From Periplaneta americana (taxonomy: Eukaryota; Arthropoda; Insecta; Blattodea; Blattidae), in assembly GCF_040183065.1 (NCBI RefSeq), contig NC_091132.1:161966602-162030601 (forward strand): a stretch of 64,000 nucleotides of DNA. Direction: 5' to 3'. Positions 1,095 to 58,175 of this stretch are shown here, piece by piece. Within the stretch, counting starts at the first letter, position 1; every line of letters begins with the position of its first letter. A program made the position numbers and the translations under genes. The notes under the pieces were generated by a model that made no database searches, was not told the origin of the DNA, and saw nothing but the letters and a program-made list of their open reading frames with translations.

Positions 1095-2584
1095 GTGAGT
1101 GAAATGTGTGGGCCTTTACTTCTTTGTTGGTTTCATTGCTTTATTTAAATAGTAATGACGAAGAATAGAAATTACTAATTAGTTTCAACATGATTGTTGT
1201 TCCAATAAAGGATTCATTATCCTGAATTGCAATGTTCACTGTAAATCTGTCTGTATGTCTCTCTTTGTGTTTGTCTATCTGTATGTCTGTCTTTCCTTAT
1301 CTGTTTCTCTGCATCATTTTCTGTCTGTCAATCTATTCGTCCATTTATAGGTTAGTGTGATAGTCTGTCTGTGTATCCGTCCTTCCTCCTACCCATCCTT
1401 ATTAACTTCTTTGTAAACGATTTGTTCTCATTTTTCTATTTCTAGTCTCCAAACCTCAAAAGTGGATGACAATAATGCTATCCCCCCATATGTTAAGTGA
1501 AGTTTTCATAATTTTATATCATAAGTTGCTTGAGCAGTTGGAACTTGTCAGCTATTTCTCAGTGATTGTCATACTGGACAGTCAAGAATAAACTGTCAGG
1601 GAGAATTCCACGTAACAAAAGCAATTGCGTAAATTCTATTAATCGAAATATATGTTTACTGAAATAGTAGTTATGTGAGTTTAAGATATTTTCCGTGGTT
1701 TTCCTCTCAATCCATCAAGAGTAAATGCCGGGTAACTTTCGGTACTGCAATCTGGACCCATCTCGCTAATATTTACATCTTCATCTCATTTAGACGCTAG
1801 ACAACGAACGATAGTTGTTGATAAAGTGTCGTAAAGACCAACTATAAAGCACTTATGAGAATTAACTCGCGTACTTCCACATATTTACTAACAGTCTTAC
1901 TAATAAACCGTGTATAGTTTTTATACGAGACTTACGCAGAGTTGAGACAGAAAACGTTACTAATATACCGTGAATAAGCTATGGACATATAAACAGGCTG
2001 TAACTATACAATGGGAATTGCTTTGAAGTAGTTATATACACGAAACCCCTTGTTTAAGCGTTTTATATAGGGAGAAAATGGCCGCCCCTTTAACAGCTGT
2101 TCGTATCGACTGTTATTTTATGATGATGTTTACCTTGTAACCACAGAAGAACAAACCAAAGATCATAGAATTATTAAAATGATATTGCTGTAGCTTGTAC
2201 TCTTTGACCAAAATGTAGTGTGGTAATCGATTAGAGCCAGTTGTACTATCAATATTTAACACGCCACACTAGAGCGCTCTACCGGATCCAGTAGAGAACC
2301 TCAGATATTCTATTACCTTTCGTAACGATGTAATGACGAAACTATGACGTAGCTGTGTAACAGTTATACTGTTACACACGACGTATGTAGTGATTATTAG
2401 TAAGGAATTTACACACGACTTATAAACGAGCTACTCATTGTATAAGACAGTTAAACGTCTGTATATAAAGTTTTTATTAGTAAGACCGTAAGTATAATAT
2501 ATTTGTTTTGGATGTAGTCTTGCTCTTGGTGATATGTCTTTCTTTAGTCTTCTTGCTCGAATTAAGAGCACATTTTCTTCACAG
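1095..2584 (+). other. Intron of gene A before the finger exon
   Basis: No coding potential is seen. It opens with a degenerate gtctgt-rich tract (1235-1385) that is also present in the gene B intron at about 21.0-21.1 kb. It holds a SINE 3-prime fragment (1688-1860) and ends with a long pyrimidine-rich acceptor, cattttcttcacag, nearly identical to that of gene B. Confidence 0.7.
1688..1860 (+). repeat. SINE family 2 fragment (3-prime part)
   Basis: The block ggttttcctctcaatcca, atgccgggtaactttcggt and a gttgataaagtgtcgtaaa tail match the body and tail of the SINEs at 22071 (+) and 37592 (-). The tRNA-like head is missing, so this is a truncated or decayed copy. Confidence 0.6.
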
Positions 2585-3899
2585 CACTGGAGTTCCACCT
2601 TGCTGCCACAGTATTACAGAAGATGAATGCCTGGAAACATGTGAGAAGACCTTGAAATGTGATGTTTGTGGAAAGTGTTTTTTAGATTCGATAAAACTCA
2701 AGAAACATACTGTTCTACACAATCGCAAGAAACCGTTGATATCCGATGATTGTGGAAAGGACTGTTTGCAGGTGGATCTTCTCAAAACACACCCTTGCGT
2801 ACATACAGGCGACCAGACATGCAGTTGTGATATTTGTAGAAAGAAATTTTCGGCAAGTATTCATCACACAGGCAACAAATCTTTCAGTTGTGATGTATGT
2901 CCAAAGATATTTTTGAACTCTTATGCCTTGAAAAATCATGCCAGAGGACATTCAGGCGACAAGCCCTTCTGTTGTCATATATGTGAAAAGAAATTTTCGC
3001 GTATCTGTTATTTAAGAAAGCATACACGTGTACACACAAGAGAGAAGTCATTCAGTTGTGATATATGTGGAAGAAAATTTTTTGATTCCAGTATTCTAAA
3101 AAGGCATACACTCGTACACACAGGGGAGAAGGCATTCAGTTGTGATATATGTGGTAAGAAATTTTCACTTTCTTGCAATTTAAAAAAACATACTCGCTTA
3201 CACTCAGGGGAGAAGCCATTCGGTTGTGATATATGTGGAAGGAAATATTCGGTTTCTAGTTCTCTTAAGCAGCATGCACTTTTACATACGGAGTTGAAGG
3301 CATTCAGTTGTGATATATGTGGGAAGAAATTTTCGTTCCCCAGTGCACTGAAAAGGCATGCAATCGTACATACAGGACAGAAGGCATTCAGATGTGATAT
3401 ATGTGGAAAGACGTTTTTCCAATACGTTAATCTAAAAACGCATGCACTTTTTCATACAGGGGAGAAGGCATTTACTTGTAATTTATGCGGAAAGAAATTT
3501 ACCCACTTTTGTAATCTGAGGAAGCATGCACTGATACATACAGAGGATAAGGCATTCAGTTGTGATATATGTGGAAAGAAATTTTCCCAATCTTGTAATC
3601 TGAGGAGGCATGCACTGATACATACAGGGGATAAGGCATTCAGTTGTGATATATGTGGAAAGAAATTTACCCACTCTTGTAATCTGAGGAGGCATGATCT
3701 GATACATACAGGGGATAAGGCATTCAGTTGTGATATATGTGGAAAGAAATTTTCCCAATCTTGTAATCTGAAAACTCATGCGTTCGTACACACAGGGCAG
3801 AAGGCATTCAGTTGTGATATATGTGGAAAAAATTTTTCGAAATCTCGTAGCCTCAAAAGACATTGTCTTACACACAGGGGACAAGGCATTCAGTTGTGA
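2585..3899 (+). CDS. ZNF gene A terminal exon: C2H2 zinc-finger array
   Basis: This exon follows acceptor cttcacag; the split Gly codon is completed by the first base. A short acidic lead (GVPPCCHSITEDECLE) precedes about 15 C2H2 units of 28 residues. Thirteen keep all four ligands (C-x2-C-x12-H-x3-H) with TGEK-type linkers. The second unit has lost its first cysteine and the third is shortened to CDICRKKFSASIHH. Such arrays bind DNA as nuclear transcription regulators; targets cannot be read reliably. The frame ends as CLTHRGQGIQL after a 2-nt loss in the last linker, so the ancestral protein was longer. At least 465 aa are encoded in the window. Downstream fingers are decayed. Neighbouring gene B has the same architecture. 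Confidence 0.9.
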
Positions 3900-4070
3900 T
3901 ATTTGTGGACAAAAATGTTTGCTATCTAGAACTCTAAAGAAGCATACTATGGGGAGAAGCCGTTTAGTTGTCATATTGATGAAAAATCTTTTCAGTATCT
4001 GGTAGTCTAAAAGAGGATGTGCTCGTATACACGTCAGATGTTCAGTTGTGATGATTGTAAAATATACGAC
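3900..4070 (+). pseudogene. Decayed zinc fingers downstream of gene A stop
   Basis: Out-of-frame finger remnants continue past the stop: ttcagttgtgatatttgtgg at 3888, a finger-like piece with aagaagcatac near 3937, and further pieces at 3961-4050. Indels and missing ligands prevent translation as an array. This is the former C-terminal part of the gene A array, possibly now 3-prime UTR. A possible ATTAAA poly(A) signal lies at 4310. Confidence 0.7.
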
Positions 4071-5200: not shown

Positions 5201-5271
5201 TTCTGATCATAAGTATATCTGTGTATTTGTACTAGATATTTTGATAAAATTGAATATAAGATTATAGCAGA

Positions 5272-5520
5272 TTACTTCAGAATAGTTTTCTGTTTTATAT
5301 TTATTACTATCATGTTGGCCAGTTCCTTATTTTTCAAAGGAAATCTGCAAGAAAAGACTATATTATGGCCGGCTTTGTTACACATGTACACTTGAAAAAA
5401 ATGCTGGTTATTTACAACTATGGACGTAACTTTATAAATCTTTCCTGAAATATTATATATATCATTTGTCCTTTTTTTTCTGCTATTGCAGTTATAAGCG
5501 ACACACATAAGAGGCTTTTT
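5272..5520 (-). pseudogene. THAP-like N-terminal exon remnant, copy 1
   Basis: On the - strand a frame reads CVAYNCNSRKK and, further on, RFPLKNKELANMIV, like the start (C-x-A-x-x-C-x-N) and the FPLKNxxL stretch of THAP zinc-binding domains. The two parts may be separate exons, because tcttttcttgcag stands just before the FPLKN segment. The start codon of the paralogous copy at 29935 is AAG here, and the second Cys/His pair is not recognisable. THAP domains bind DNA and occur in host genes and in P-element-type transposases; which one this was cannot be told. Confidence 0.45.
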
Positions 5521-5550
5521 TTTTTATGTCTTTAGCGCCATTCTCCGTAT

Positions 5551-7011
5551 TAGAGATGGGTAAAAAATAACACAACAGTTATTTTGGAACTGTTCCGGTC
5601 TCGGAACTATTGCAAAAATGAACAGTAGGTCGGAACCTCCTGTTCCGAAATAACAGTGTTCCGACTCCGAGCTGCTCACTTGTCAACTGTTGCGGGCTCG
5701 CAGTACCGCGTGGCACAAGGTATGTTCCGACTCCCTCGGAACTGTTGCAAAAATGAACAGTAGGTCGGAACCTCCTGTTCCGAAATAACAGTGTTCCGAC
5801 TCCGAGCTGCTCACTTGCCCAGCTGTTGCGGGCTCGCAGTACCGCGTTGCACAAGGTATGTTCCGACTCCGAGATAACAGTCGGAACGTCGGAGCTTGTT
5901 CCGATGAACCAACGACAGCTGCAGTTACACTGTACTTGAAACTCTCACGTGGTTGGAGGGGGGCGCATGGAAATTGAAATCCTTGCGGTGGCGCGAACTT
6001 TAATATCAACATTTGTAAGACTGGCCAATCATCTGTAATGTTATAGTAAGTATTCAATAATCTGTAATATTGATTCCCGCTTTATGGTTTATTTCACCAT
6101 TAGTTGACTAATTCTGTTTTATAAACATTCTACAAAGTCATAAAGTACGCATACTATTATTAATTCATTGATCAGCTGATTCTATACAAAGGTTAAAGTC
6201 GTAAATGGTAATGAGTGGTTTAGTTACAATGTCTGTATGTCGTTTGTTGAGGTTAAGTCTGACAAGCACAAGTTTTTGTGCTATCTTCTCTGTTATCAAA
6301 GAACGACAAAATGTTGTAGCATTATTTGTTGGAAACTACCCATATAAGTACTGATTTGGAGAGCGAGGTTTAATGCGAAGTTTAAATTACACTTTGGTAA
6401 AGATGCGATTCCAACATTTTACTAACCCACTGCGGGGTTTCCAGGTTTCAGTACTGCCAATATATATCTTTTTTATTTATGAAATTGTAATATTTATTAT
6501 TATTATTATTATTATAACTGTGCATTAAGAAAAGTAAAAATAAAAATTAATGATTTGTTTTTTTTATTATGTAATAGAGAGAACAGAAATTACATACCAT
6601 ATGTTTTAAATGTTATGTTATTTTTTTTTTAGTTGGCTACCATTTCTTTATAACTTTATGTACGAAAACAAAGTGTTGTATTCTGTCCTTGTAGTCAACA
6701 GCTGTGTAATTACTAACATTAAGCTTTTGAGTTCTGTCCGCATGCACAGCAATTTTCCAAAATCGATTCGAATGTGCATTGCAGTGCCATCTATAGATAA
6801 GAATGTGTACTATGTCATGCCTATGAGTGCTCCAGTGTGAGCTGCATGGTGTTATTTGTCTATGGTGTACCGTTCGTTTGAACGACTCAACGACTCCGAC
6901 TCATCACCACTGGTGACTGTTATTTCGGAACTGTTATTTGGAACATAGTATTTTTTCGGAACCGGAACCGTCGGAACTGTTCCGGGAAAAGAACAACTTC
7001 GCCCATCACTA
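5551..7011. mobile_element. Non-autonomous hAT-type element, TIR TAGAGATGGG
   Basis: The ends are tagagatggg and its imperfect complement cccatcacta, flanked by a perfect 8-bp duplication ctccgtat (5543-5550 and 7012-7019). The matching site in the duplicated segment at about 29.96 kb is empty. The inside is full of short ggaac/gttcc motifs and encodes no transposase. Part of it (about 6720-6830) resembles 34020-34110 inside the hAT element at 33436. An 8-bp duplication is the hAT hallmark; family placement is inferred. Confidence 0.85.
5602..5871. repeat. Two tandem 135-bp units inside hAT element
   Basis: The block beginning ggaactattgcaaaaatgaa recurs 135 bp later as ggaactgttgcaaaaatgaa and stays nearly identical through gcgggctcgcagtaccgcgt. 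It is a subterminal tandem duplication within the transposon. Confidence 0.85.
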
Positions 7012-11265: not shown

Positions 11266-12966
11266 CACTGGTGGCCATAATTCTGGAAACTTTTTGTGTT
11301 TGTACTGAATTATCATAACATCTATTTTTATTCACATATTATTACAATTTAAAATGTTACTCGTGACTGAAAGCATCAAACAAACATTGTCCATTCCATT
11401 TTTAAAGAAAATACATAACTTTATAGCATAATGTGTATGAGAAAACAGATATTTACACATTAAAACTTAGAAAAATTTTCGTGTTATTTTCTCATTCACT
11501 CTGTAAAAGTTAGTACTCTGTGGGATAACATTTATTTTTAATGACAGCATCAATTCTGCGGGGCATTGAGTCCACTAGACGTTGCAGTTCTTCCTTGCTG
11601 ATGATCCGAAACCAGCTGTGGATAATGGTTTCAATCAATTGAGTTTTGTTAGTGGGATTTTTTAGACACCAAACTTTTTAACATTGACCACAAGTTTTCA
11701 ATTAGATTAAGGTCAGGACTATTCCCAGGCAACTTTATCACCTTGATGTTTTTCTGTTGAAATCATTGCATAAACTCTTGGCAGTATGGCATGGAGCACC
11801 ATCCTGTTGAAATACAAAGTCATCACAATTTGGGTGTAAGTCGAAATTGGATGGGATCAATTTCGCTTCCAGAATATCTTTTATGTATTTTTCCGCATTG
11901 AAGTTCCCTTGAACAATCTGAAGTTTTCCTACTCCATTCTTGGACATGCATCCCCAGATAATGACAGCAACAGGATGTTTCATAATTGCGATGAGACACT
12001 CAGAATTCAAAGCTTCTCCATCTCGGTGACGAACGTATTTGACTCTGTCACTTCCAAATACAGAAATTCTTGTTTTATCACTCCATATCACGATCGCCCA
12101 GTTCATCGGTCCATGATTGATGATTTTTGCACCCATTTACACGATTTTCTCGTTGCCTTTTGTTGAGAAATGGTTTTTTTCTGGGTGCTCTTGCTTTCAA
12201 TCCATTGTCGAATAACTTCCTTCGAACAGTCCTCGCAGAAATACCAAGTCCACTGCAGTGTAGAACTTCCTGTATCTCTTTAGAAGATTTCTTTCGATCT
12301 TTCAATGCTAATCCACAAATCTGCCTCACATCTCTTGGACTTACTTTAGGTTTCCTACCTGTCCTAGACGTTCTTTTACAAGACTTTGTGGATTTGTACC
12401 TCTGCCATACCTTCTGGACGCCAGACACCATTACCAAGTTTTCTTGAAATTTCCTTGAATGTGTAGTCTTCTTCTCAAAGTGTGACTGCCCTACTTCTTT
12501 TAGAAGGTGTCCATTCCTTTCTTGGAGCAATTGTGATAAAATTATCAATAGAGTTTGTGGTAAAATAATCAGGTGTTAACCGAACGAAATCTTAAGTCAG
12601 ACTAATAATAGAAACACACTCATAATGTCCATATTTTATGCTAAAATTGCTCAAGATTGTTCCTACTGATCAACAATAATCTTAAAATCAACAATGGACC
12701 AATTTTTATTTCAGTAAATAATCAGAAATTATAATGAAATCTGAAATAAATATTTAGATCTTAAATGACAAGAACATAATTCCCCACATAGTAATGATTA
12801 TTTATTGTTAAATATTAAGGATTTAATATAATACCTTTATTATAACCCCATAATTAACGAATCAGTCACGAGTAACATTTTAAATTGTATAAATCTGTGA
12901 ATAAATACGGATGTTATAATAGTTCAGAACAAAAACAAAAAGTTTCCAGAATTATGGCCACCAGTG
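11266..12966 (-). mobile_element. Tc1-like transposon
   Basis: Both ends carry cactggtggccataattctg in inverted orientation, with similarity continuing about 110 bp inward (to about 11380 and from about 12855). TA dinucleotides flank it at 11264-11265 and 12967-12968. It encodes a broken transposase on the - strand. It lies 6 bp after the end of the Helitron. Confidence 0.93.
11510..12548 (-). pseudogene. Tc1-like (DD34E) transposase, frameshifted
   Basis: Read on the - strand from 12548, the first part has the paired helix-turn-helix region (QKVWQRYKSTKSCKRTSRTG, then GRKPKVSPRDVRQI), up to about 12078. A frameshift near 12110 moves to a second frame with WSDKTRISVF (first Asp) and FQQDGAPCHTAK (second Asp). 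A second shift near 11750 leads to NSPDLNLIENLW, holding the catalytic Glu, and a TAA at 11510-11512. The three acidic residues of the DDE triad are still recognisable, but the frame is broken at least twice, so the protein is not made. Confidence 0.85.
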
Positions 12967-13149: not shown

Positions 13150-14326
13150 GTATCCCACATGAGAGTGACTACTACTTGCTATTTATTTTCTAAATAAGTC
13201 GTTTATGACAATATGGCATATCGTGTGGGCGAAAAAAATATCCTACAATGACTGGACGCGAGAGACAACATCTCAATGATAGTGCACTACCGTCTGACCA
13301 GTGCAGGGGTAGCTTATGGTTATGGTGATGTTCTTCCCTGCCATTTTAACTGGTCCTCAGAACCAGACTTCAACACTTGTTGTAGTTTCCCAGATTCATC
13401 AGAAAGATTCTGAGTGGACTGCGATATTATAAAATGATTACAGTTTTATGACAAAATTTCTACCTGGTGAAGACGCATCGGCTAATGCACCTGACAAATT
13501 CATTTCTTAAACTGGAAGAATAGTTTATTTGTGGTGCATTACTACTAGTTTCATCGGCTTTAAACATCTGTGGTCTTAGCGTTGAGGTACAGATTATATA
13601 GACTGCATTCTAATTTGTCTCGCTGTAGTAATATAATGAGAGACGTCGGTGTTCGCATATAATTGCACCTCGAACCAGCATTTAAGGGAACAACTCTGCT
13701 ATTTTCTGCTATTGATTAAGTCGACCTGGTTGGCGAGTTGGTATAGTGCTGGCCTTCTATGGCCCAAGGTTGCGGGTTCGATCCCGGGCCAGGTCGATGG
13801 CATTTAAGTGTGCTTAAATGCGACAGGCTCATGTCAGTAGATTTACTGGCATGTAAAAGAACTCCTGCGGGACAAAATTCCGGCACATCCGGCGACACTG
13901 ATATAACCTCTGCAGTTGCGAGCGTCGTTAAATAAAACATAACATTTAACATTTAGCTATTGATTACCATCAGAAGAAGTATCTAAAGCAATAAATAATT
14001 TTAAAAGAGGTTTCAAATTTTCCACGATACATTTTATAAATAAATTAAGTAATTCTGAAGTGAAATGTGTTTGTATGTGCAAATGTAAAAAGGTGTAATA
14101 ATGTACTGGAAAAAACAATCTAATAATATACAGCTATTATTTTAAATGCTGCGTTAACATGCTTTCCATACAAATTATATCACTACTGACTCTGATGTGT
14201 GTGCACGTGCTTTCGTTGACATCAGAATTTAATAATACAGTGGAGAGCCATTAAAGATGGTCACTGGTTTTTCGTGAACTACTACATATGGTACATTTCA
14301 TAATTATTATGTTTGGTGTGTTGCAG
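13150..14326 (+). other. Intron of gene B
   Basis: No coding sequence. It contains the SINE at 13719-13955. Just before the next exon the sequence ttgacatcag is shared with 17850-17860, upstream of the duplicated exon. Confidence 0.6.
13719..13955 (+). repeat. tRNA-derived SINE, family 1, with 11-bp target duplication
   Basis: A-box tggcgagttgg and B-box ggttcgatccc head, body shared with the copies at 685 and 42622, and tail gcgtcgttaaataaaacata. The perfect duplication gctattgatta flanks it (13708-13718 and 13956-13966), typical of LINE-mediated retroposition. Confidence 0.93.
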
Positions 14327-14464
14327 GAAGGAAATGTATTAGATGTGCAAATGACTGGAATAAAGACAGAATGTATGGACCACAGCTATGAAGTAAACTC
14401 TAAAATGACTTTTCATAAAACTCCTGTGCCAATTGAGTTGTCCTTCGTCAAAAGTGAAGTTGAG
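14327..14464 (+). CDS. ZNF gene B, 138-nt IKTEC exon, copy 1
   Basis: The exon runs from acceptor tgttgcag to donor gtgagtg: 46 codons, phase 0 at both ends. It begins EGNVLDVQMTGIKTECMDHS and ends SFVKSEVE, with psi-K-x-E (SUMO-type) motifs at IKTE and VKSE. No folded domain is recognisable. It is a paralogue of the exon at 17961 (26 of 46 residues identical by eye) with matching introns on both sides, so it arose by tandem duplication. Because both are in phase 0, the mRNA may include either or both; the sequence does not decide. Confidence 0.8.
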
Positions 14465-16256
14465 GTGAGTGCAGTTTATGAAGTGTGTTGGTCTCTCTGT
14501 TGTTCACTGGCTGATGTGGCTGCTACATTCGGGTGACCAGGGGATACGATTGATGCTTTCATGCTGTCCATTTCTTCATCCTACATATTTCGTGATTCTT
14601 TTCCACCTCTGTTTTGTCATAGAAACCGCAATACTGAATATTTACAAAATGATAATATATATGTTGATTTCTTCCTCAATAATTATTATTTTACCATGTC
14701 TGCTTTTAATTTATTTGACATTCCAGTATGGAATGCGGGCCACTTTCAGTTGATCCCATAGTAGGTGACTAAATTGTACTTTGCACCTGGTTTAGGAAAT
14801 AATTTTAATTGTGCTTTTCTTTTTTTATTTCCAATTCTTCCTTTTAAATTGCTCTTTAGCCAAACTGTTTTTATTTCTATTTTTTGGTACCATTTCTTTC
14901 TAATTACGCATTAAAGTCATATCACAAAGACTACTTTAGAGTTCCTTTCTCCATCCTCCTCCATTCAGCAGTACATAGCTTCCTCACACTGATTTACATG
15001 GGGAGGAAGAATTAATCGTGGCTTCACGTCCAACCCTTCAATAAAACAACAGAGAGATTTGTGAACACTAAAATCATTGTAGACAAGGCTTTTCGGTAAA
15101 ATCCAAGATTCAGTTGCTGTTCTTCCAGACGAATCGGAGATCGATGACGCAATATGTGACGCCACGCATGATGATAATATTTGAAAAAATGAATGAATTT
15201 GGGGGCTCAAGCCTCAAATCCCTCGCTACTTCCAGTTATCTTTCTTCTACCTTACATCTCTTCACTTCATACTCTTCCTCACAAATTTTTCTCTATTCAC
15301 CCTCTACTTACTTTATGCTATAAATTAATTCATCTTACTTTGGAATACATCACTTACCTTAGATATTCGATCCTAGGACCTTTCGATCAGTGAACCGCCA
15401 TCATAGTGATTATGCTACAAATTCATTGAAGTATAAACCCTTAAGAACTATACTTGGACACAATTAACGTGAAATACTCCCAAAGGCATTAAATATTTAA
15501 GGTCATATGTATATAGAGTGGAAGGTAACCTTTAACAATCCTTCTGGGGTATGATATCTTGAATTATGACGAGAAAGAAAGTCTAATAATATCTTGTTCC
15601 CAGAAGGATGGTTTTCGAAAAAAAATGGTATTTTGTAACTTGAAATTACGATTAAGTTTTTCATGAAACTTCTCAAAATTTGATTTTTATCTCATGTAGG
15701 ATGATAGAATAAGCTATGTATGGCCATGTTACACTCATATTTGCATGGAAAATAACAGATTTCGAATAAATCGCGTTAATACTCGAATACACATTGCATG
15801 GTAACAGGGCTGTGACACACTGGCAACAACTGTTTCTTTCAATGTGGCTGAGCTAAGTGTAGGGAGCAGACGATATGCTTACATTCACTTCATTAGTTGC
15901 AAGCTACGTTCAGTTCGAAGCAGTTGAAACACAACGAGATGCCACAGTTTTGTAATGTATCTGGACGTGTTATTAAGTTATGGCGAAACTGGTCACAATG
16001 CCATTGCAGCTGCTCGCTTATACCGTGACTGATAATTGGATCAGGAGTGTGAAAGTTGTAGACACGCAACTGGTGAACACTTTGAGCAATATCTTTAAAA
16101 AACACTGTAGAGAACGGTGTACATAATTTAATAGTGTACCTCACATTAATGCGTATCATTTTCATTCTGTTTCAAAGTTGTTTATCTCCTCCAGACATTG
16201 TATTGTAATTGAGTTGGAGTGACATCAACTGTGTGATCCTCAATGTAAAGTAATAC

Positions 16257-16961: not shown

Positions 16962-17960
16962 AATCTCACTAAGTAAACACTGCTATTGTCTACAAAGTTG
17001 CAACATTGCAACATTCGTTTTCTCGAAATATTACAAAAACTACTTGTCGTATAAAAAATATTATTTGACAAAACGTTCCCAAATGACATTATCTGTTACA
17101 TGTGTGAAGGATTGTAAAAGGTTACCTTTCATCCCGTATAACACAAGTGATTTAATTAATTTGCTATTAACCTAATTACATTTAAGTTCGCAAAAATAAA
17201 TTACAAATTAATTAACTTGTATTATATAAGCCAGTAAACTAATATGATAAATATCCAAAGGATGGCGTAAATCCACTTATCTACTATCAATTGCCTAATT
17301 TACGTATATTAAATCTATTCACTAGACCAGTCCATTTAGACTAAAGGCTTTAGTATTTTAGTAATCTTGCAATTGCTAGTACATCACGAAAGAACTTTAA
17401 CTTTTCCGAATTATATAAAGCCATGAACACAGACAATGAAAGTAATGAAAATTTAGGCATCGAACAAGGATAAAAACACATAAAACACCAAAAACCTTCG
17501 ATCTATATTATGTATATTTAAGTTCCTATTCCTTCATTCCGAAAGTGCAAACAGAAGAACACAAGCTCATCAAATGTTTATCGACTATATAAACAACATT
17601 AAAAAAAACATAAATGGTCTATGGACATACACCAACATGGAACAACAACTTTGAGGTAAGTTAAATTACAAGTATTGTATAAAATCAAATTTTTGTACTT
17701 ACAAATTAATGTGTATATATGCATGACGTCATATAAACCTCTTACGTCATCCATAGTATAGATCGGACAACAGCGACTCTTCATTGGATTCTACCGACTT
17801 TTCTGAAAAATTATTTCACTATTGACACTGGAATGGTACACGTGAAATCCTTGACATCAGGATTAATGAAAGAGTGAACACGCTTTTGAAACAGTCATTC
17901 GTCTTTTTTTATTGGAGACTTGTGTTGTATGACATTATTATTTTGTTTTATATTTTACAG

Positions 17961-18098
17961 GAAGAAAATATATTAGATCTGCACGTGACCGAAATAAAGA
18001 CGGAATGTATGGATCACAGCTATGATCTGAAATCAGAGATGACATTTGAGGAATCTCCTGTGCCAGTTGACTTTCCCATCATGAAAAGCGAGGGAGAG
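17961..18098 (+). CDS. ZNF gene B, 138-nt IKTEC exon, copy 2
   Basis: The exon follows tattttacag and stops at gtgagtg: 46 codons, phase 0 to phase 0. It starts EENILDLHVTEIKTECMDHS and ends PIMKSEGE. The IKTE psi-K-x-E motif is kept; the C-terminal VKSE of copy 1 is IMKSE here. Its length, phase and both splice sites equal those of 14327-14464. It joins in frame either to that exon or directly to 13149, and its downstream partner is 20793. It has slightly more of the usual family residues (LDLHVT) than copy 1. Confidence 0.85.
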
Positions 18099-20792
18099 GT
18101 GAGTGCAATTTATGAAACGTGTTGGTCGATGTTTCTCTATCTGTTACGTACTGGCTGGTATGGCTGCTAGATTCACGTCACCAGGGAAACAATTTTATCT
18201 CTCATGCTGTCCAATTCCTTGTCCTGTAGTCCTTCGTAAATTTTTTCCTCTCAATTTTTCTCCTACGGACTGATGCTGAAGGTTTACTAAATCATATTGG
18301 CTTTGAATTTTTAATTTCTATTGATACTTCTTACAATATCTACATCTAATTGAAGTGACAGGCAAATATAGAGTTACTCGGTAATCGGTGTGTAAACTTG
18401 GGTTTTGTGTCCGGTGTAGGCAATACAGTTATTTAGATTTCTTGTAATTTTTCTTTTTAAATTCTTTTGATATTAGAAATCCACATCATTCACGCCTATT
18501 TCTTGGGACGTCAGTAGTTGGCAGATCTGTATGAATGTCACATTTCAGGATGAATACTTCACAGTATTGGTGGGATCTGCTCTGAAGTCTTGCACGCCGT
18601 GCTAATCACTATTGTTCATGTAAAGCATGGCACTGGCATATCAGTTCAATTTGCAGGAGAATGATAAGCATAAACATCTTTCTGTTCATGGGAAACATGG
18701 ATATTCCTCGTGGTTTGTTCAGAGATACATCGATTACAAAGATATTGAGTTCTAGACAACTCGGAAATCTACAGATAGGAAACCAATGCTTCCTCCTTAC
18801 AATCGCCAAGAATCATCTGAAGACAAATATCTCACTGTGATATTGTCGCAATTATCTATCACAGCGGTTTTTCCGGAGCTTGCACAGTTCCGAGACGTAA
18901 TAGCAAAACCCCACATATACTTCAGAGTTCCTTTGCTCTTCCCCTCCACTCTGCAGTAGCAACCTCACACTGTTACACGGGGAGGATCATTTAATTATTA
19001 CATCGACTTCATACTCCCACAGTAAACCAACACACAGGATTGGGAACAATGACATAGAACTGGACTCTGGAAAAATTGAAAAGTGAAGGCCGTAAGGGAA
19101 GTAACTAAATATAATACTGTGAAACCTGTTCAAATCGGAACCTGAATAATCCAGAATCCTGTCTATTTCGGAACAATTTATTGGTCCCTGCGAAATTCAT
19201 ATGTATTAAGTGTAATTTTTCCTGAATAAAACGGAAACTGTCCAACGCGGAAACGGAAACTGTCTGCTACTGTTCAAAACGGAAATAATATTTTGGACAG
19301 ACTAGTTTAATGTAAACTATATTTTGAAACAGTATGTGCTTTCAAGGAATGTACGAAACATATAGGTCAATAAGATAAAAACAAGTTTTCTTTGTAAAAT
19401 TTTTCAGGGTGCGAGGGTGTGTTGGCCTGGTGGTCATAAATTTTATTACTCTATTGACTAGGCAGACGAGTCCCTTCAAAGATGTTCAATGCTTCACTCC
19501 TGTATACTGTCGCAGCTGGGTAGAAGGCAAGTGTAGTAGTGATTTCGTGATAAAAAAAAAAGTTGCGTAAAAATATTGCACTATCATTAATTGATGAAGT
19601 AGAAGTTATCGAGGGAAATGAGAAACGAAGATTATGAAAAATAATGTTATAATTTATGAATGGAAAACTCAGGTGTAACTTAACATTTAAAAAAATAAAG
19701 GCCGTATCATGAGTGAGTGGCTTGCAGTCAATAATGGTGACATAAAAGGAAATAGAAAACAACTGGTTACATAGAAATAAAGTAACTGTTGTCGGAGTGG
19801 ATTGTTCTTGCCCTTTCAAAGATCATGCAAATTTCTGGACCTGTTCTGCAAAGCAAACCTTGAACTGGCAAAGAAATTAGATAATCCAGAATTCAAGGCT
19901 TCTAGGCTCTTAGTCCAATTAAATAATGTGCTGTGATATACAGTGTAGTATTATAGTATAGTGTTAGATATTAAATGTAGTGTAATTAATAAACTTTATA
20001 GTGTTTAATGAGTGAGTTACGATACAATTTATACAGGAAAGATCATTTCCAGTTAAATAAGTGACAGGAAGCTGATTTAATGTCAGTAGTGTTAAACGGA
20101 ATATTTTGTAATTCCTACAATTTGCTGCATGCCATTTTGTTTTTCATTTATACAAATGATAAAATATTCCATTTTAACTTCACACCTTAATAACACGGAA
20201 ACTGTGTCCATAATGGAAAAAAAATTAGGACCATGTCACTTCCGTCTTGAACAGGTTTCACTGTAATAGGAGGAAGAGTCCTACTGAATGTTCACAATTG
20301 AAGTGATTTATTCTACTGCTGTTTACACTGTGCAAATTACTCTTCCTGCATGACTTTTACGAACCTTCGTTCATTTAGTTTAGTCGTATGGCTTTTATAA
20401 ATCCAGAGATATCTGAAATAGTTTCAAACTATCTTACTAAAAATTACCATCACCAATTTTACCGTAACAATTTGATCACTTGTTAACTAGTCTTCCTGAA
20501 TCCTACTCACATATGACCATCTCAGGAATATGATTGGATTGTCATTCTTATTTACTCTTCCTATTGATTTATAGTTTATGTAATTGTTACCTGAAATGGA
20601 ACATTTCTTACAAAATGCCATAATATTTTGTTTTTGTAGGTCTTAAATTTATCTCTCTGCTACAACAATAATGCTTGAATTGTTTACTGGATTAAGTATG
20701 ATTTAAATCCTAGTCTGTTGCATTTAAGCTACCATCCATTGAGCCTTCAACTATAATTTTTCTGTATCTTCTCTTCACATACTCTTTTGCAG
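18099..20792 (+). other. Intron of gene B, paralogous to the left window edge
   Basis: 18.87-19.11 and 20.27-20.79 kb align with 1-1011 of gene A, interrupted by the pogo/Tigger element at 19117-20263. No coding sequence apart from that remnant. Confidence 0.75.
19117..20263 (+). mobile_element. pogo/Tigger-like element with decayed CENP-B-type gene
   Basis: Inverted ends ctgtgaaacctgttcaaatc and gtcttgaacaggtttcactg are flanked by TA (19115-19116, 20264-20265). The paralogous gene A intron near position 228 has the empty site. On the + strand a broken frame reads ISGPVLQSK (about 19829) followed, after a shift, by LELAKKLDNPEFKAS (about 19858), the CENP-B/pogo DNA-binding motif. The catalytic DDE part is deleted. 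Non-functional. Confidence 0.88.
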
Positions 20793-22990: not shown

Positions 22991-23448
22991 TGTAAGCCTT
23001 TGACGTCCCCCCTCCGTACACGACAAATAAAAAAGAAAGTATAGAATTTATAGTACACTTATGTTGATGTTTTCTAATGCCAGGCGTTTGACAATAAAGT
23101 CATTTGACCTCTTGCACTCTAATATTTTTCAAAGATATTATCATGGCCAGCCACTGAAGCATAGATTTTGAATCCATTTCTTGGTTTCAGTTGCACAGTA
23201 GTACACTTATAAATGCTCAAATAATTATGAAATTATTGAGATAATGGGTACAAGTTATACATTTTTTTTAAAACTAGACGAAATGAGCTTCTAGGTGAGG
23301 CAAAACCATTATTTATCAAAATTTTGAATAAATCTGACACTTTTACAGTCGATGAACACCTAAACTTGAGTGAAACTCTCTAATTCGAAACATTTTTCGT
23401 CGTTACTTTTTCGATGTTGCTCGAACTAAGAGCATATTTTCTTCACAG

Positions 23449-24787
23449 CATTGGAGCTCCACATTCCTGCGACACTACTACAGAAGATGCTTCCCAACAG
23501 TCAGGGGAGATGACATTCAAATATGATGACAGTGGCAAGTGGTTTTGCGATTCGACAAGTCTCAAAAACCACGTTGATCTACACAAGCCCAAGAGACCGT
23601 TGAGTTGCGATGTTTGTGGAATGGATTGTTTGCACTTGGATCGACTCAAAAGACACGCACGCGTACACACAGGCGAGAACTCCTTCATTTGTGAAATGTG
23701 TGGAAAGAATTTCTCGCAATCTAGTAGCCTAGAAAAGCATCAACTCGTACACAAAGGCCAAACGCCGTTCTGTTGTCATATATGCGGAAAGACATTTTCG
23801 GGTTCTAGTACTCTGAAAAAGCATGCACTGCTACACAAAGGGGAGAAGGCATTCTGTTGTGACATATGTGGAAAAAAATTTTCGCTCTCTGGTACACTCA
23901 AAAGGCATGCAGTCGTACACACAGGGGAGAAGGCATTCAGTTGTGATGTATGCGGAAAGAAATTTACCCAATCTTATAGTCTAAAAAATCATGCAATCTT
24001 GCATTCAGGGCAGAAGCCATTCAGTTGTGATATATGTGGTAAGAAATTTTCGCAATCTATTTATCTAAAAGTGCATGAACTCGTACACACAGGGGAGAAG
24101 GCATTCACTTGTGATACATGTGGAAAGAAGTTTTCGGTATCTACTGGTCTTAAAAAGCATTCACTCATTCACACAGGGGTTAAGCCGTTCAGTTGTCATG
24201 TTTGTGGTAAGAAATTTTCCCAATCTGTTCATCTAAAAGTCCATGGACTTGTACACACAGGGGAGAAAGCATTCACTTGTGATACATGTGGAAAGAAGTT
24301 TTCGAAATCTAGTGCTTTTAAAACGCATTCACTCATGCACACAAGTGATAAGCCATTCAGGTGCCATATATGTGGTAAGAAATTTTCCCTATCAGGTTAT
24401 CTAAAAAAGCATAGACTCAGACACACAGGGCAGAAGGCATTCACTTGTGATACATGTGGAAAGAAGTTTTCGGAATCTAGTCATCTCAAAACGCATTCAG
24501 TTGTACACACTGGGGAGAAGGCATTCAGTTGTGATATATGTGGAAAAAAATTTTCGCAGTCTGGTTCTGTAAAAAAACATAGAATCGTGCACACTGGGGA
24601 GAAGACATTCAGTTGTGATATATGTGGAAAGAAGTTTTCGGAATCTAGTAATGCAAAAAAGCATAGAATCGTACACACTGGGGTGAAGGCATACAGTTGT
24701 GATATATGTGGAAAGAAGTTTTCGGGATCTAGTAATGCAAAAAAGCATAGAATCGTACACACACGGCGAGAAGGCATTCAGTTGTGA
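23449..24787 (+). CDS. ZNF gene B terminal exon: 14-15 C2H2 fingers
   Basis: After acceptor cttcacag, the lead GIGAPHSCDTTTEDASQQSG precedes fifteen finger units. The first has lost both cysteines (KYDDSGKWF); fourteen keep C-x2-C-x12-H-x3-H. Linkers are mostly HTGEKAF or HTGVKAF. The last three units have near-identical helices (SQSGSVKKH, SESSNAKKH, SGSSNAKKH). The frame ends HTRREGIQL at 24785-24787 because a one-base gain in the CACAC run of the linker (24757-24764) shifts it into a stop hidden in the next finger. With the upstream exons the protein would be about 589 aa if both 138-nt exons are used, a nuclear DNA-binding regulator by family. Expression is not shown by sequence. Confidence 0.9.
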
Positions 24788-26200
24788 TATAAATAGAAGG
24801 AAGTTTTCGGGATCTATTAATGCAAAAATGCATAGAATCGTACACACTGGAGTGAAGGCTTTCAATTGTGATATATGTGGAAAGAAGTTTTCGGAATCCA
24901 GCAATGCAAAAAATCATAGAATCGTACACACTGGGGTGAAGGCATTCATTTGTGATATATGTGGAAGGAAGTTTTCGGGATCTATTAATGCAAAAATGCA
25001 TAGAATCGTACACACTGGAGTGAAGGCATTCAGTTGTGATATATGTGGAAAGAAGTTTTCGGAATCTAGCAATGCAAAAAATCATAGAATCGTACACACT
25101 GGGGTGAAGGCATTCAGTTGTGATATATGTGGAAAGAAGTTTTCGGAATCTAGTATTCCAAAAAATCATAGAATCGTACACACGGGTGAAGGCATGCAGT
25201 TGAGATATATGTGGAAAGAAGTTTTCGGGATCTAGTAATGCAAAAAAGCATAGGATCGTACACACACGGGGAGAAGGCATTCAATTGTGATCTATGTGGA
25301 AAGAAGTTTTCGGAATCTAGTAATGCAAAAAAGCATAGAATCGTACACACTGGGGTGAAGGTATTTACTTGTGATATGTGTTGAAGGAAGTTTTCGGAAT
25401 CTAGTAGTGCAAAAAAACATAGAATCGTACACACTGGGGTGAAGGCATTCAATTGTGATATATGTGGAAAGAAGTTTCCGGAATCTAGTAATGCAAAAAA
25501 GCATGGAATCGTACACACACGGGGAAAAGGCATTCAGGTGTTATATATGTGGAAAGAAGTTGTCGGAATCTAGCAAGTCAAAAAAGCATAGAATCGTACA
25601 CACTGTGGTGAAGGCATTCACTTGTGATATATGTGGAAAGAAGTTTTCTGAATTCAGTATTGCAAAAAAAAAAAAACCATAGAATCGTACAGACCGTGGA
25701 GAAGAAATTCAGTTGTGATATATGTGGAAAGAAGTTTTCGGAATTCAGTAATGCAAAAACACATAGAATCGTACAGACTGGGGAGAAAACATTCAGTTGT
25801 GATACATGTGGAAAGAAGTTTTCGGAATCTAGTAATGCAAAAAAGCATAGAATCGTACACACTGGGGAGAAGAAATTCAGTTGTGATACAAGTGGAAAGA
25901 AGTTTTCGGAATCTAGTAATGCAAGAAACAGAATCGTACAGACTTGGGAGAAGGCCTTCAATTGTGATATATGTCGAAAGAAGTTTTCGGAGTTCAGTAA
26001 TGCAAAAAAACATAGAATCGTACACACACGGGGAGAAGGCATTCACTTGTGGTATAAGTTTAAAGGTATTTTCGGAATCTGGTAGTGTAAAAGTGTATGC
26101 ACTCTTAGACACAAGTGAGAGGATCAATTGCGATGTTTGTGGGATGTTTTATCTCGTTCTCGCAAGACCTGAAACAGCATCTAACGTGATACGTAAGTGA
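24788..26200 (+). pseudogene. Frameshifted extension of gene B finger array
   Basis: About sixteen further 84-bp finger units continue past the stop, very alike at the DNA level (recurrent gcatagaatcgtacacac and ggaaagaagttttcgg). They fall in different frames, broken at linker CACACAC runs (about 25258-25268, 25508-25516, 26020-26028), near 25188, by an in-frame TGA at 25382-25384, by a 13-A run at 25664-25676 and by a short deletion near 25922. One unit has lost a cysteine (GATACAAGTGG, 25883-25893). The last recognisable piece is near 26150. It is probably untranslated 3-prime UTR or dead sequence from recent finger amplification. Confidence 0.85.
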
Positions 26201-34652: not shown

Positions 34653-35988
34653 CGATGGGGATCCAGGAAATAACGACCGTTCGCGCATACCCGCCGCGCA
34701 GCTGACTCCCCTTCCTTGTTTGAAGGTCAACTGGCTTCCTTAACATGTGTTCTCATAATGTTGTGAGTACTGGTTGCAACAAGTCGCCATTGTGCATTTT
34801 GTGTTACTTCAAAATGAACGACGTGACTGATAATCCCGTCGACTGTGAGGTGAGGAGTGTGATTCGATATTTGAATGCCCGACATTTGAAACCTGCAGAA
34901 ATTTACCGGCAATTGAAAGAAGTGTATAGTGATACTGTAATGAATGAAAGAAATGTGAGAAAATGGTGCGAAATGTTCAACGATGGGCGAACAAATGTCC
35001 ACGATGAAACTCGACCCGGACGCCCATCACTCATCACAGAAGACCTGAAGACTAAAGTGAACGACAGAATCTTGCAAGACAGGCGCACATCACTCGACGA
35101 ATTGCATATTGCCTTTCCTGACATTTCTCGTTCTTTGCTTGGTGAAATTGTGTCGCAACATCTTGGCTACCACAAAATCTGTGCACGATGGGTTCCACGG
35201 CAATTGAGTGACTAACACAAAACTCAGAGAATGGCCTCAGCATTGACATTCTTGATGCGATATCACACAGATGGAGACGCCTTTCTTGATCAAATTGTGA
35301 CTCGCGATGAGACCTGGGTGTCTCACAACATCCCAGAGACCATGCGCCAATCACGCCAGTGGCATCATCCCTCATCACCCAAGAAACCGAGAAAATTCAA
35401 ACAGACTCTCTCAACACAAAAAGTCATGGCTATTGTCTTTTGGGATCGCAAAGGTGTTCTTTTGCTGGATTTCATGCCAAAAGGCACTACGATCAATACA
35501 AATCGTTATTGTGAGACTCTACGAAAACTACGGCGAGCCATCCAAAACAAGAGGCGAGAAATGCTTTCGAGAGGAGTTGGGCTTCTTCACGACAACGCCA
35601 GCCCGCACACTGCTGCTTCAACTCGAGAATTGCTGGATCAATTCGGTTGGGAAATCTTTGATCATCCGCCAACTATAGTCCAGACCTTGCTCCTAGCAAT
35701 TTTCACCTTTTCACTAAGCTGAAAGACTTTCTGGGTGGTACGCGTTTTGGAAGTGATGAAGAGTTGAAGAAGACAGTGAACACCTGGCTTAATGAACTGG
35801 CGGCAGAGGAGTATAACACGGGAATTCTAAAGCTAGTGAACAGATACGCCAAATGTTTAAATGTAGGTGGTGATTATGTAGAGAAGTAAAGGAAGCTTCA
35901 GTTATGTAACAGACTTTGTTTTTTCAAATAATATATATATTTTTTAATTATTACAACAAAACGGTCGTTATTTCCTGGATCCCCCTCG
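34653..35988 (+). mobile_element. mariner transposon (DD34D type)
   Basis: Inverted ends cgatggggatccaggaaata and tatttcctggatccccctcg, with TA on both sides (34651-34652, 35989-35990). About 1.34 kb, a full-length size, with one transposase frame on the + strand. Confidence 0.95.
34814..35889 (+). pseudogene. mariner transposase, three defects
   Basis: From ATG 34814: MNDVTDNPVDCEVRSVIRYL starts the N-terminal helix-turn-helix domains, with WCEMFNDGRTNVHDETRPGR following. The first catalytic Asp is in VTRDETWVSH and the second in LLHDNASPHTA. An in-frame TAA stands at 35213-35215, where relatives read through to HKTQRM. A two-base loss near 35680 shifts the frame before SPDLAPSNFHLF, and there the third Asp is Asn. 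The end GGDYVEK with stop at 35887-35889 is still readable in the shifted frame. The protein cannot be active. Confidence 0.92.
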
Positions 35989-45734: not shown

Positions 45735-46404
45735 GTAAGTGGTTTACTATCAATATGCAGATATATCAGTAGTACATTTTTAGGTATGTTAAAGCCATTA
45801 ACAGTCTGGGATAATATTAAATTAACTTGTTTTCTTTTTTCCAATATTTTCTAAATTTGACGGCTTTGATTGTTGGATTTTAAATAGAATAATAATTCAC
45901 AAATATATAATTGTGGTGATAACAGTGAATTATCTTTAATGCGCGAAGAAAGTTGCAGATTTTATTTGGACTTTGCTAAACTTTTCTTTTGTTCTACTGG
46001 TCTAGCAATTAGTATGTTAGACATTGAACGATAGGTTAGACTGATATACAGTGAGATTAGGTGGGGAAGATCGGGTTTTGCAGAAGCCGTTCCCCGCCAA
46101 GAGATGGCATGATCACCAGGAATAGTGCGTCCGCATTCTCAGTGCACAAACAATGAGTAGCACTGCAGTTTCGCTTTAGTTGTGTTGTTAGATGTAAGTT
46201 GGCAGTCAAAGCTGTAATCTTAACGGTTTAAGTTAAGTTTAAAGTGATCTGTGTAGGCTACTGTTGTAATGACTTATTCATTACGTGAACGGACTTATCT
46301 ATACAGTACATGTATATGGATACGAAAGTCTTGACTGTTAACAAAGACGCAAATTTCGGGAAATGTTTCCATAGAGACCTGTTCCAGCTGCCAGTACAAT
46401 AAGA

Positions 46405-47795
46405 CTTTATAAGAAGTTCTTGCGAACAGGTTTGGTAAGCGAAATAATCGTACCTATTTTTAAGAAGGGGGACAAGACTAACAGTAGTAACTTTCGAGGA
46501 ATATCACTTTTGTTGACGTCGTACAAAATTTTGTCGAATATCCTTTTGAGAAGATTAACTCCATATGTAGATAAAATTATTGGGGGTCATCATTGTGGTT
46601 TCAGGCGTAATAGATCGACTATTGATCAGATTTTTTGTATTCGACGATATTGGAGAAAAAAATGGGAGTATAAGGGTACAGTACATCAGTTATTCATAGA
46701 TTTCAAAAAGCCATATGACTCGGTTAAGAGAGAAGTTTTATATAATGTTCTTATTGAATTTGGTATTCCCAAGAAACTAGTTCGATTAATTAAAATGTGT
46801 CTTAGTGAAACTTACAGCAGAGTCCGTATAGGCCAGTTTCTATCTGATCCTTTTCCAATTCACTGCGGGCTAAAGCAGTGAGATGCACTATCACCTTTAC
46901 TTTTTAACTTCGCTCTAGAATATGCCATTAGGAAAGTTGAGGATAACACAGAGGGTTTGGAATTGAACGGGTTACATCAGCTTCTTGTCTATGCAGATGG
47001 CGTGAATATGTTAATAGAAAATCCACAAACGGTTAGGGAAAACGCGGACATTCTACTTGAAGCAAGTAAAGAGATAGGGTTGGAAGTAAATCCCGAAAAG
47101 ACAAAGTATATGATTATGTCTCGTGATCAGAATATTGTACGAAATGGAACTATAGAAGTTGGAGATTTATCCTTCGAAGAGGTGGAAAAATTCAAATAAC
47201 ACAGCAACAAATGAAAATGACACTCGGGAGGAAATTAAACGCAGAATAAATATGGGAAATGCCTGTTATTATTCGGTTGAGAAGCTTTTGTCATGCAGTC
47301 TGCTGTCAAAAAATCTGAAAGTTAGAATTTATAAAACAGTTATATTACCGGTTGTTCTGTATGGCTGTGAAACTTGGACCCTCACTTTGAGAGAGGAACA
47401 GAGATTGAGGGTTTTTGAGAATATGGTTCCTAGGAAAATATTTGGGGCTAAGAGGGATGAAGTTACAGGAGAATGGAGAAAGTTACAAACGCAGAGCTGC
47501 ACGCATTGTATCCTTCACCTGACATAATTAGGATCAGTAAATCCAGACGTTTGGGGATGTAGCATGTATGGGCGAATCCAAAAATGCATATAGAGTGTTA
47601 GTTGGGAGGCCAGAGGGGAAAAGACCTTTGGGAAGGCCGAGACGTAGATGGGAAAATAATATTAAAATGGATTTGAGGGAGGTGGGATATGATGGTAGGG
47701 ACTGGATTAATCTTGCTCAGGATAGGGACCAATGGCGGGCTTATGTGAGGGCGGCAGTGAAACTCCGGGTTCCTTGAAAGCCAGTAAGTAAGTAA
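46405..47795 (+). repeat. Non-LTR retrotransposon (RTE-like) RT and 3-prime end, degenerate
   Basis: The frame gives VPIFKKGDKTNSSNFRGISL, GFRRNRSTIDQIF, LFIDFKKPYDSVKREVLYNV and [16 protein letters not shown], the ordered RT blocks. The catalytic YADD is YADG (near 46993), a TGA stands in the GLKQG(D/E) region at 46879-46881, and frameshifts follow near 47200 and 47490. The C-terminal part has VILPVVLYGCETWTL and GRPRRRWENNIKMDL; it ends ccttgaaagccagtaagtaa. RTE-like placement is my inference. It cannot move by itself. Confidence 0.88.
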
Positions 47796-57054: not shown

Positions 57055-57643
57055 GATTGTGAATAATGTTGAGAACATTGTGTCAGAAGAATGCGACGGC
57101 ATTGATCGTGAAGAAGACAAATTGACTCAGTGTTGTAGCAACAGATCAGACTATTCAAACAACAGCGACATGCATAATTCTATCAAGTGTAATATTTGTA
57201 GCGTGGTTTTTGTTACATTGCAATCCCTGAAATATCATTCCTGTATACACACCAAAAAAAACTCATTCAAATGTGATGTCTGTGGAAAGTGTTCTATGAA
57301 ACTGAGCGCTCTAAAGAGACATGCACTCCTACACACAGACGGGATGCCATTTCATTGCGAAGTATGTGGGGAGAATTTCAGATTGAAATCGGATTTGAGG
57401 ACACACGCACGGATACACATTGGAGAGAAGCCATTCAAATGTGAGGTGTGTGAAGAATGTTTCTCAGATATTGTAGTTTTAAATAGACACGTACGCATAC
57501 ACACCGACGAAACGCCATTTAAATGCGATTCATGTGGAAAGTGGTTTTCACGATTGGGAAACTTTAAGTTACATTTGCGCGTTCACACAGAAAGCCATTC
57601 AAATGCGAATTGTGTTGAAAGTGTTTCTCACAACTTACTTTAA
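57055..57643 (+). CDS. ZNF gene C terminal exon: five C2H2 fingers, truncated
   Basis: After acceptor ttcatttcag, the lead RIVNNVENIVSEECDGIDRE precedes five complete fingers: CNICSVVF, CDVCGKCS, CEVCGENF, CEVCEECF and CDSCGKWF, each with H-x3-H. A deletion of about four bases in the next linker (near 57590) ends the frame as HTESHSNANCVESVSHNLL. The total with upstream exons is 882 nt, about 293 aa. At least two more fingers follow out of frame, so the protein is shorter than its ancestor. Its finger cores (RHVRIHTDETPFKC) differ from the uniform CDICGKKF units of A and B, so it diverged earlier. A nuclear DNA-binding role follows from the family. Confidence 0.88.
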
Positions 57644-58175
57644 TCGACATGTACCCATTCATACCGGGGAAAGGCCATTCAAGTGCGAGATGTGCGATAA
57701 TTGTTTCTTAGAATCTGCAAATTTAAAGAAACATGTACGCATACACTGGCGAAAGGCCTTTCAAGTGCGAAATTTGTGGAAAGTTTTTCTCTCAATTGAC
57801 ACATTTAAACCGACATTTACGTGTTCACAAAGGCTAAAGGTATTCAAATGATGTGGAAATTGTTTTTGACAAGAGATACATCTCTACAATCACGTTCTTC
57901 TGCACACAGGCGAGAGAATTCAGATGCAGGTAATGTTTATCAAATTCTCATTAGTTCAGGATTAATGATCGCCTAGACTGGTGCCAGAATCATTTTGATG
58001 TAATGTATCTGGAAATATTTATCGCGGATCATATCAACAGTTACTCGTCTGATGTAAAAGTATAAAAATACGTAAGATCTTTCATACAGGCGAAATGCCT
58101 TTGAAATATGAAAATTACGAAATATGTTTCGTGTTTAAGGATAAGCTGAAAATGCATGTGTGTTTATACGTAGGC
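57592..58175 (+). pseudogene. Out-of-frame fingers downstream of gene C stop
   Basis: A second frame holds [20 protein letters not shown] and [13 protein letters not shown], ended by loss of two bases at atacactggcg (57739-57749). A third frame reads [17 protein letters not shown] and, corrected, a finger with AATTTGTGG at 57770. Poorer pieces lie at 57840-57930 and 58083-58175 (ggcgaaatgcctttgaaata). These are former fingers of gene C. Confidence 0.8.

Follow-up and report, generated by a model that had tools for sequence, protein, structure and literature searches.

Linker frameshifts and a decayed tail of stranded units in a C2H2 zinc finger array of Periplaneta americana

Zinc fingers stranded behind the stop codon of a finger gene are already known. 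The human gene ZNF252, located in the KRAB-ZNF cluster at 8q24.3, has eleven finger motifs after its stop, and both complete and degenerate fingers are found there in the 3' untranslated region (PMC2865497). The cockroach array described here resembles this gene in that its open reading frame stops and is followed by further complete and degenerate fingers. ZNF252 differs in being a vertebrate gene, and the available part of that report describes neither an inherited stop caused by a frameshifted linker nor an inward copy of it. A second related system is the growth of C2H2 arrays by duplication of several domains (PMC1553488). In that work blocks of fingers are duplicated, often inside the array, which is also the pattern considered here, whereas the unit that looks to have been copied in the cockroach bears a frameshift and hence a stop. 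A third one is the ambush hypothesis, as outlined in PMC5909447 and PMC3700767, where stop codons in the shifted frames end translation quickly. This is also what happens at the present locus, but the total of hidden stops is below that of a synonymous shuffle in both frames.

Among the titles and abstract openings returned by the literature searches, none dealt with a frameshifted linker that serves as the inherited end of a finger gene. What this locus appears to add is a stop, common to a set of genes, that consists of an inherited linker frameshift, together with copies of it inside one array.

Array B and its stranded units

Arrays of the C2H2 (Kruppel) type consist of tandem 28-residue CX2C...HX3H fingers joined by TGEK-like linkers. 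Three of them are contained in the window, which is the whole stretch of 64,000 nucleotides that was analysed, in a genome of 3.23 Gb in 91 contigs. They are the arrays of genes A, B and C, named winA, winB and winC, and L-numbers are used for other loci of the same genome. The open reading frames of all three genes were matched by the Pfam families zf-C2H2 and zf-H2C2_2. Two short open reading frames of the window, at 14255-14536 and 17826-18170, are similar to each other (...KTECMDHSY...) and are perhaps leader exons of finger genes; they gave no Pfam match.

The region 23449-26200 is the finger array of gene B, in which a period of 84 bp was found, corresponding to units of one finger each. 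Its open reading frame in the list of reading frames, counted from stop to stop, extends over 23384..24787 on the plus strand, contains 15 finger units (zf-C2H2, E 5e-69, from 23450) and ends with ...HTRREGIQL-TGA. This frame is constrained, with a dN/dS of 0.40-0.58 in comparison with the paralogues L022, L037, L018 and L038 over the first 380 codons. In the 200 bases past the terminal stop the divergence from array B was 0.15 for L022, 0.16 for L037 and 0.19 for L018, which falls between the respective dN (0.09, 0.12, and 0.16) and dS (0.21, 0.31, and 0.27), a position that by itself does not demonstrate neutrality.

Breaks of the frame were called with a profile of 84 positions, to which the sequence was aligned by a wraparound Viterbi procedure. 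Frame-breaking events in array B were located at 24764 (+1), 25184 (-2), 25267 (+1), 25520 (+1), 25671 (+7), and 26029 (+1). An earlier note on this DNA had placed the breaks of array B in the HTGEK linker, and the one-base gains at 24764, 25267, 25520 and 26029 are indeed found there, all four linkers having the one form CACACACGG(C/G)GA(G/A)AAG. That note had not listed the -2 at 25184, which lies in a CA/GG stretch of a linker within the tail (plus strand), the +7 at 25671, which has produced an A-run of 13 in the K-K codons at 25664..25676 (plus strand) as a second slippage site, an in-frame -3 near 25928, and the in-phase stops at 25201 and 25382. Two more indels are present in the degenerate end of the array.

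Beyond the stop of array B about 16 similar 84-bp finger units are stranded at 24788..26129 on the plus strand (16.6 units were counted). All four zinc ligands are kept in 14 of the 15 units of the open reading frame and in 10 of the 15 scored units of the tail, and the two in-phase stops fall into two units of the tail. The tail of array B is decayed. It might be imagined that splicing across the linker, editing, or a programmed frameshift lets the shift be read productively, with the tail still being translated. Long quasi-open stretches downstream (182 and 157 amino acids) would be in line with this, but with five of 15 tail units lacking the full set of ligands, two in-phase stops, and further indels, a translated tail is very improbable.

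Run-unit indels, array ends and hidden stops

The comparison included 40 arrays, i.e., the three of the window and 37 loci of the same genome, with L044 left out and with L001, L003, L005, L006, and L008 counted in, which look like other finger families. From well-aligned context 135 frameshifting indels were obtained and merged to 114 events, the eleven terminal and array B +1 linkers being merged by hand to one. Each 84-bp unit carries a CACACA run in the linker and an AAAAAA run in the K-K codons, and in this sample each run shifts mostly by its own unit. Such agreement between step size and run unit is what characterises slippage. Among the 114 events, 19 of the 30 losses of two bases were located in the CA run at unit positions 57-66 (10 bases), where 3.6 were expected (p 4e-11). 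Gains of two bases were not prominent (2/10 in 56-66, 1.3 expected), losses of one base avoided the CA run (1/39), and gains of one base occurred there in 3 of 16 cases, with 1.9 expected. One-base shifts were found instead in the A-run of the K-K codons at positions 40-48, which took 9/16 of the +1 and 12/39 of the -1 events. The HTGEK segment as a whole (61-75) was not significantly enriched, with 23/114 events versus 20.4 expected.

With stricter merging and no cluster made by hand, 104 events remained, with 15/24 of the -2 events in the CA run and 8/18 of the +1 and 9/33 of the -1 events in the A-run. Gains of one base in the CA run then amounted to 5/18 versus 2.1 expected (p 0.054), and HTGEK to 24/104 versus 18.6 expected, which is short of significance. 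As a control of placement, 150 random indels of each size were planted, of which 144 were recovered for each size; 19 of the -2, 24 of the -1 and 15 of the +1 indels were placed in the CA run versus 17.1, i.e., with no bias for -2. The CA run of the linker is a true hot spot, with whole CA units as its step (-2). The HTGEK segment in its entirety was rejected as the hot spot; the CA run draws -2, and the A-run draws one-base shifts. The pattern of run-unit indels is statistically shown, and we infer replication slippage as its cause. Microsatellites in coding runs slip in the same manner, with a step equal to the unit, two bases for CA and one base for A; the +1 of array B is different in that it does not fit a CA-unit step.

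In locus L023, four tail units at 3711-3959 share one same -2 and three share one same +1 in the A-run, so that here a frameshift has apparently been multiplied by duplication of units.

The open reading frame of gene A extends over 2484..3899 on the plus strand and finishes with ...THRGQGIQL-TGA after a -2 at 3865..3880 (plus strand; CTTACACACAGGGG). This -2 fits the loss of one CA unit; it was placed at unit position 52, directly 5' of the CA run, and being outside 57-66 it is not among the 19. In gene C the Viterbi alignment revealed a -4 at 57591..57594 in the GGGGAAAA part of a linker and a -2 at 57743..57744 in the ACAC run of a linker, both on the plus strand. The suggestion that genes A and C break in the same linker run as gene B therefore applies to the -2 of gene C at 57743 and not to its -4 at 57591, and for gene A it has to be modified, as the break is a -2 and no +1, situated just 5' of the CA run at 3865 although explainable by one CA lost. 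Both A (2484-3899) and B (23384-24787) finish with GIQL-stop as had been noted. As the break is -2 in A and +1 in B, this common ending arises from different lesions.

Among the 40 arrays, 22 are ended by a frameshift (not always in a linker) and 13 by an in-finger nonsense codon, and five (L001, L003, L005, L006, and L008) end beyond the array. Of the 35 that end inside, by frameshift or in-finger stop, as in a truncated gene of the ZNF252 kind, 34 are followed past the stop by finger matches of one unit or more in length. An exact GIQL end was found in five of the 40 (winA, winB, L022, L029, and L037) and an end of the form ...QL-stop in eight. The idea that linker slippage trims arrays in a uniform way contains a true part, in that a -2 or +1 in the linker often ends the reading frame at the next Cys codon, as the eight ...QL-stop arrays illustrate. 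Linker shifts are one common route to the end of an array. They are neither the main nor the uniform one, in view of the 13 arrays ended by nonsense codons, the frameshifts outside linkers, and the A-run as a second hot spot. In the related arrays of L025, L026, L031, and L046 (also L020) the frame is in each case closed by a TGA at a finger's first Cys codon, which may be another inherited stop.

Hidden stops are frequent in these fingers. In the frame reached by +1 or -2 a stop is present in 449 of 480 intact units within reading frames, and for 347 of the 480 it is provided by the next Cys codon (TG-TGA); in the other off-frame a stop is present in 378 of the 480. The statement that every finger carries a hidden stop has to be qualified, as it is not all of them and the other frame is also rich in stops. 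In comparison with a shuffle of synonymous codons the totals of off-frame stops in the 480 units were below the null in both frames (969 versus 1242 in the +1 frame and 442 versus 516 in the other), so that an overall excess over codon usage, as the ambush hypothesis would predict, was not found. Counting units with at least one stop, there were fewer than in the shuffle in the +1 frame (449 versus 462, sd 3.7), and the other frame slightly exceeded it (378 versus 363, sd 7.3). Selection for hidden stops was rejected on the stop totals; these stops seem to arise incidentally, from codon usage and from TGT being followed by GA.

A one-base gain in the last linker of paralogous arrays

A linker with +1 was found in 12 of 777 linkers of the 40 arrays. 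Nine of these are the last well-formed linkers of their arrays (winB, L018, L021, L022, the second array of L032, L037, L038, L039, and L040), and the other three are internal and all belong to winB. The second array of L032 is a short one at 5247-5705 of this locus, 1.4 kb past the first, which ends in the +1 linker and at its 3' end is close in sequence to L040 and gene A. Thirteen termini could be aligned. Eight of them have the gain in one register (winB, L018, L022, L037, L039, L038, the second array of L032, and L040), four have the linker without the gain (L042, L034, the first array of L032, and L030), and in winA the linker is lost by a -10. L021, whose terminal unit is missing, has the +1 in its last linker, perhaps at the same position. 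The inserted base differs in L038 and L040 (A). Since in-frame CACACACGG linkers are present in L020, L027, L038, and L040, the inserted base is ambiguous, and the +1 may be a gain of G.

In array B this terminal linker lies at 26023..26038 on the plus strand, and the alignment and the tree of the termini give it the same position as the final well-formed linker in L018, L022, L037, and L039. It is followed at 26048..26200 (plus strand) by a degenerate terminal unit and 3' flank common to paralogues, for which nhmmer yielded 181-197 bits in winB, L018, L022, L037, and L039, which had all served as seeds for the profile. When the linker was excluded, a tree of the 13 termini grouped winB, L018, L022, L037, and L039 to one set with 100/100 support, which argues that the terminal +1 of array B is common by descent with at least four arrays, L018, L022, L037, and L039. 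A common origin with L038, the second array of L032, and L040 is less sure. In the same tree the second array of L032, L040, and winA formed a separate 100/100 set and L038 stood apart, and a tree of the 3' 150 bases had a supported branch which cuts the second array of L032, L040, and winA from all others. A tree of 31 arrays based on the 5' 900 bases, which leaves out L001, L002, L003, L004, L005, L006, L007, L008, and winC, united winB, L018, L021, L022, L037, L038, L039, and L040 in an 11-row group (89/86) that also includes winA, L027 (ending short of that linker), and L032 with its first array, in which the gain is absent. One gain behind all nine last-linker +1s was not upheld, given the two supported sets, with L038 besides, in the tree of the termini, and the first array of L032 without the gain; two or three separate gains are possible.

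The TGTGA after the terminal +1 linker is kept in L022, L037, L038, L039, the second array of L032, and L040. It is lost in L018, where a TAA in the same linker is the stop, and in array B at the linker at 26023, where the TGA has decayed to TGG (TGTGG). This loss in array B fits a stop that is out of use.

Errors of assembly or consensus in a near-identical repeat could also create such frameshifts, and a search for a second allele of array B, in which 40 of 761 candidates were scored, was negative (next best match 87% over the first 1210 bases). As the same change is present at separate loci, with the identical +1 at the same place in several paralogues, the +1 at 26029 is unlikely to be such an error. 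The tail units have decayed otherwise too, with ligands lost and stops acquired, and the published P. americana assembly was built with HiFi and Hi-C data (PMC12774602), which speaks against errors if that is the genome used here. Taken over all frameshifts, this explanation is very improbable.

The proposal that the CACACA run slips repeatedly, with four independent breaks in array B and arrays trimmed uniformly, can draw on the CA run as a true hot spot for -2, on the ends by -2 in or beside the CA run of winA, L002, L019, L029, and L030 (of which L019 and L030 are sisters among the 31 arrays of the tree, so that their two ends are perhaps one event), and on the tree of the termini, where the last-linker +1 may have arisen more than once. 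None of the four linker breaks of array B, however, is a CA-unit step. They are all +1, a change restricted among the 777 linkers to the 12 mentioned, and the fourth recurs at the same position in L018, L022, L037, and L039, so that slippage repeated four times is rejected for them; with nonsense codons ending 13 of 40 arrays in addition, the proposal as a whole is improbable.

Probable copies of the gain inside array B

The first +1 linker of array B, CACACACGGCGAGAAG, is located at 24758..24773 on the plus strand, and the shifted frame reads the TGA at 24785-24787. A second copy is found at 25261..25276 and a third one at 25514..25529, both on the plus strand; the second was seen in the alignment and matched the exact-flank +1 pattern, and the third has lost the TGA after the linker (TGTTA). 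A search of the whole genome for linkers between exact finger flanks, which does not reach diverged copies, revealed two places with a linker 1-2 bases too long, both +1 and both in array B (24743 and the 25261 copy), and two places with a linker 1-2 bases too short, both -2, in L029 and L020. Within the 40 arrays TGTGATATAA is confined to the terminal units of L022, L037, L038, and L039 and to the segment that follows the 24758 linker. As it is otherwise found only in terminal position, the 24758 copy seems to carry the terminal flank besides the linker. The copies at 25261 and 25514 have only the linker in common with the terminal form. When the linker was masked, a nearest-neighbour comparison paired the three internal +1 junctions mostly with ordinary units of array B, and identities at unit offsets yielded no clean higher-order block, so that boundaries of duplications in array B were revealed neither by the offsets nor by the comparison of junctions.

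These results may be put together as follows. The +1 at 26029 would be a single base gained long ago by the last well-formed linker, at a position common to L018, L022, L037, and L039, which would turn the TGTGAT of the next half-finger into a stop, giving GIQL-stop in L022 and L037. Duplications of finger blocks in array B would then have carried copies of this linker, with its stop, inward; the internal linkers look like inward copies from their common form, and for the one at 24758 also from the common flank. The most upstream copy now ends the reading frame at 24787; the units beyond it are unconstrained, and these decayed units have probably multiplied as a minisatellite. This explanation, which combines slippage of the CA and A-runs with an inherited terminal +1 of array B that was copied inward and a tail that decayed, is considered quite probable.

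A variant is that the tail was never translated, the stop having moved first and the fingers having been born by minisatellite expansion in untranslated DNA. It is compatible with the copying of the terminal +1, and both can hold. The tail is monotonous, its units having a single helix type, the internal +1 copies recur in the tail, and codon positions 2 and 3 of the tail units diverge alike (0.139 and 0.146, with 0.074 at position 1). The four zinc ligands kept by 10 of 15 tail units speak against it, though youth alone would explain them too. This variant is about as likely as not.

If the inward copying of the terminal +1 is true, arrays with a finger-like terminal unit hold their own stop inside a recombining repeat, and one unequal exchange shortens the translated array and leaves a fast-changing dead tail. 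Shared frameshifts in repeats may be copies, and counting them as independent hits is risky. It is tempting, if speculative, to regard the last linker together with the start of the terminal half-finger as a portable stop which by duplication sets a new gene end in one step. Array length would then be altered by recombination with the gene's own terminator and not by new mutation.

Several finger arrays occur on both of the contigs C16 and C17 with equal scores and lengths of their reading frames (e.g., C16:180886350 and C17:569473), which may be a true duplication or unresolved haplotypes. Besides finger genes the window contains remnants of mobile elements. A transposase of the Mariner type at 34724-35722 consists of two adjoining reading frame pieces (HTH_48 of the Mos1 type and Transposase_1) and, as a stop splits these pieces, it is probably a broken copy. 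Pieces of a Tc1/Tc3-like transposase are found on the minus strand at 11738-12575, with HTH_Tnp_Tc3_2 in the piece that was scanned (12081-12575), and pieces of a LINE-like reverse transcriptase at 46375-47777, with RVT_1 in the piece scanned (46375-46878).
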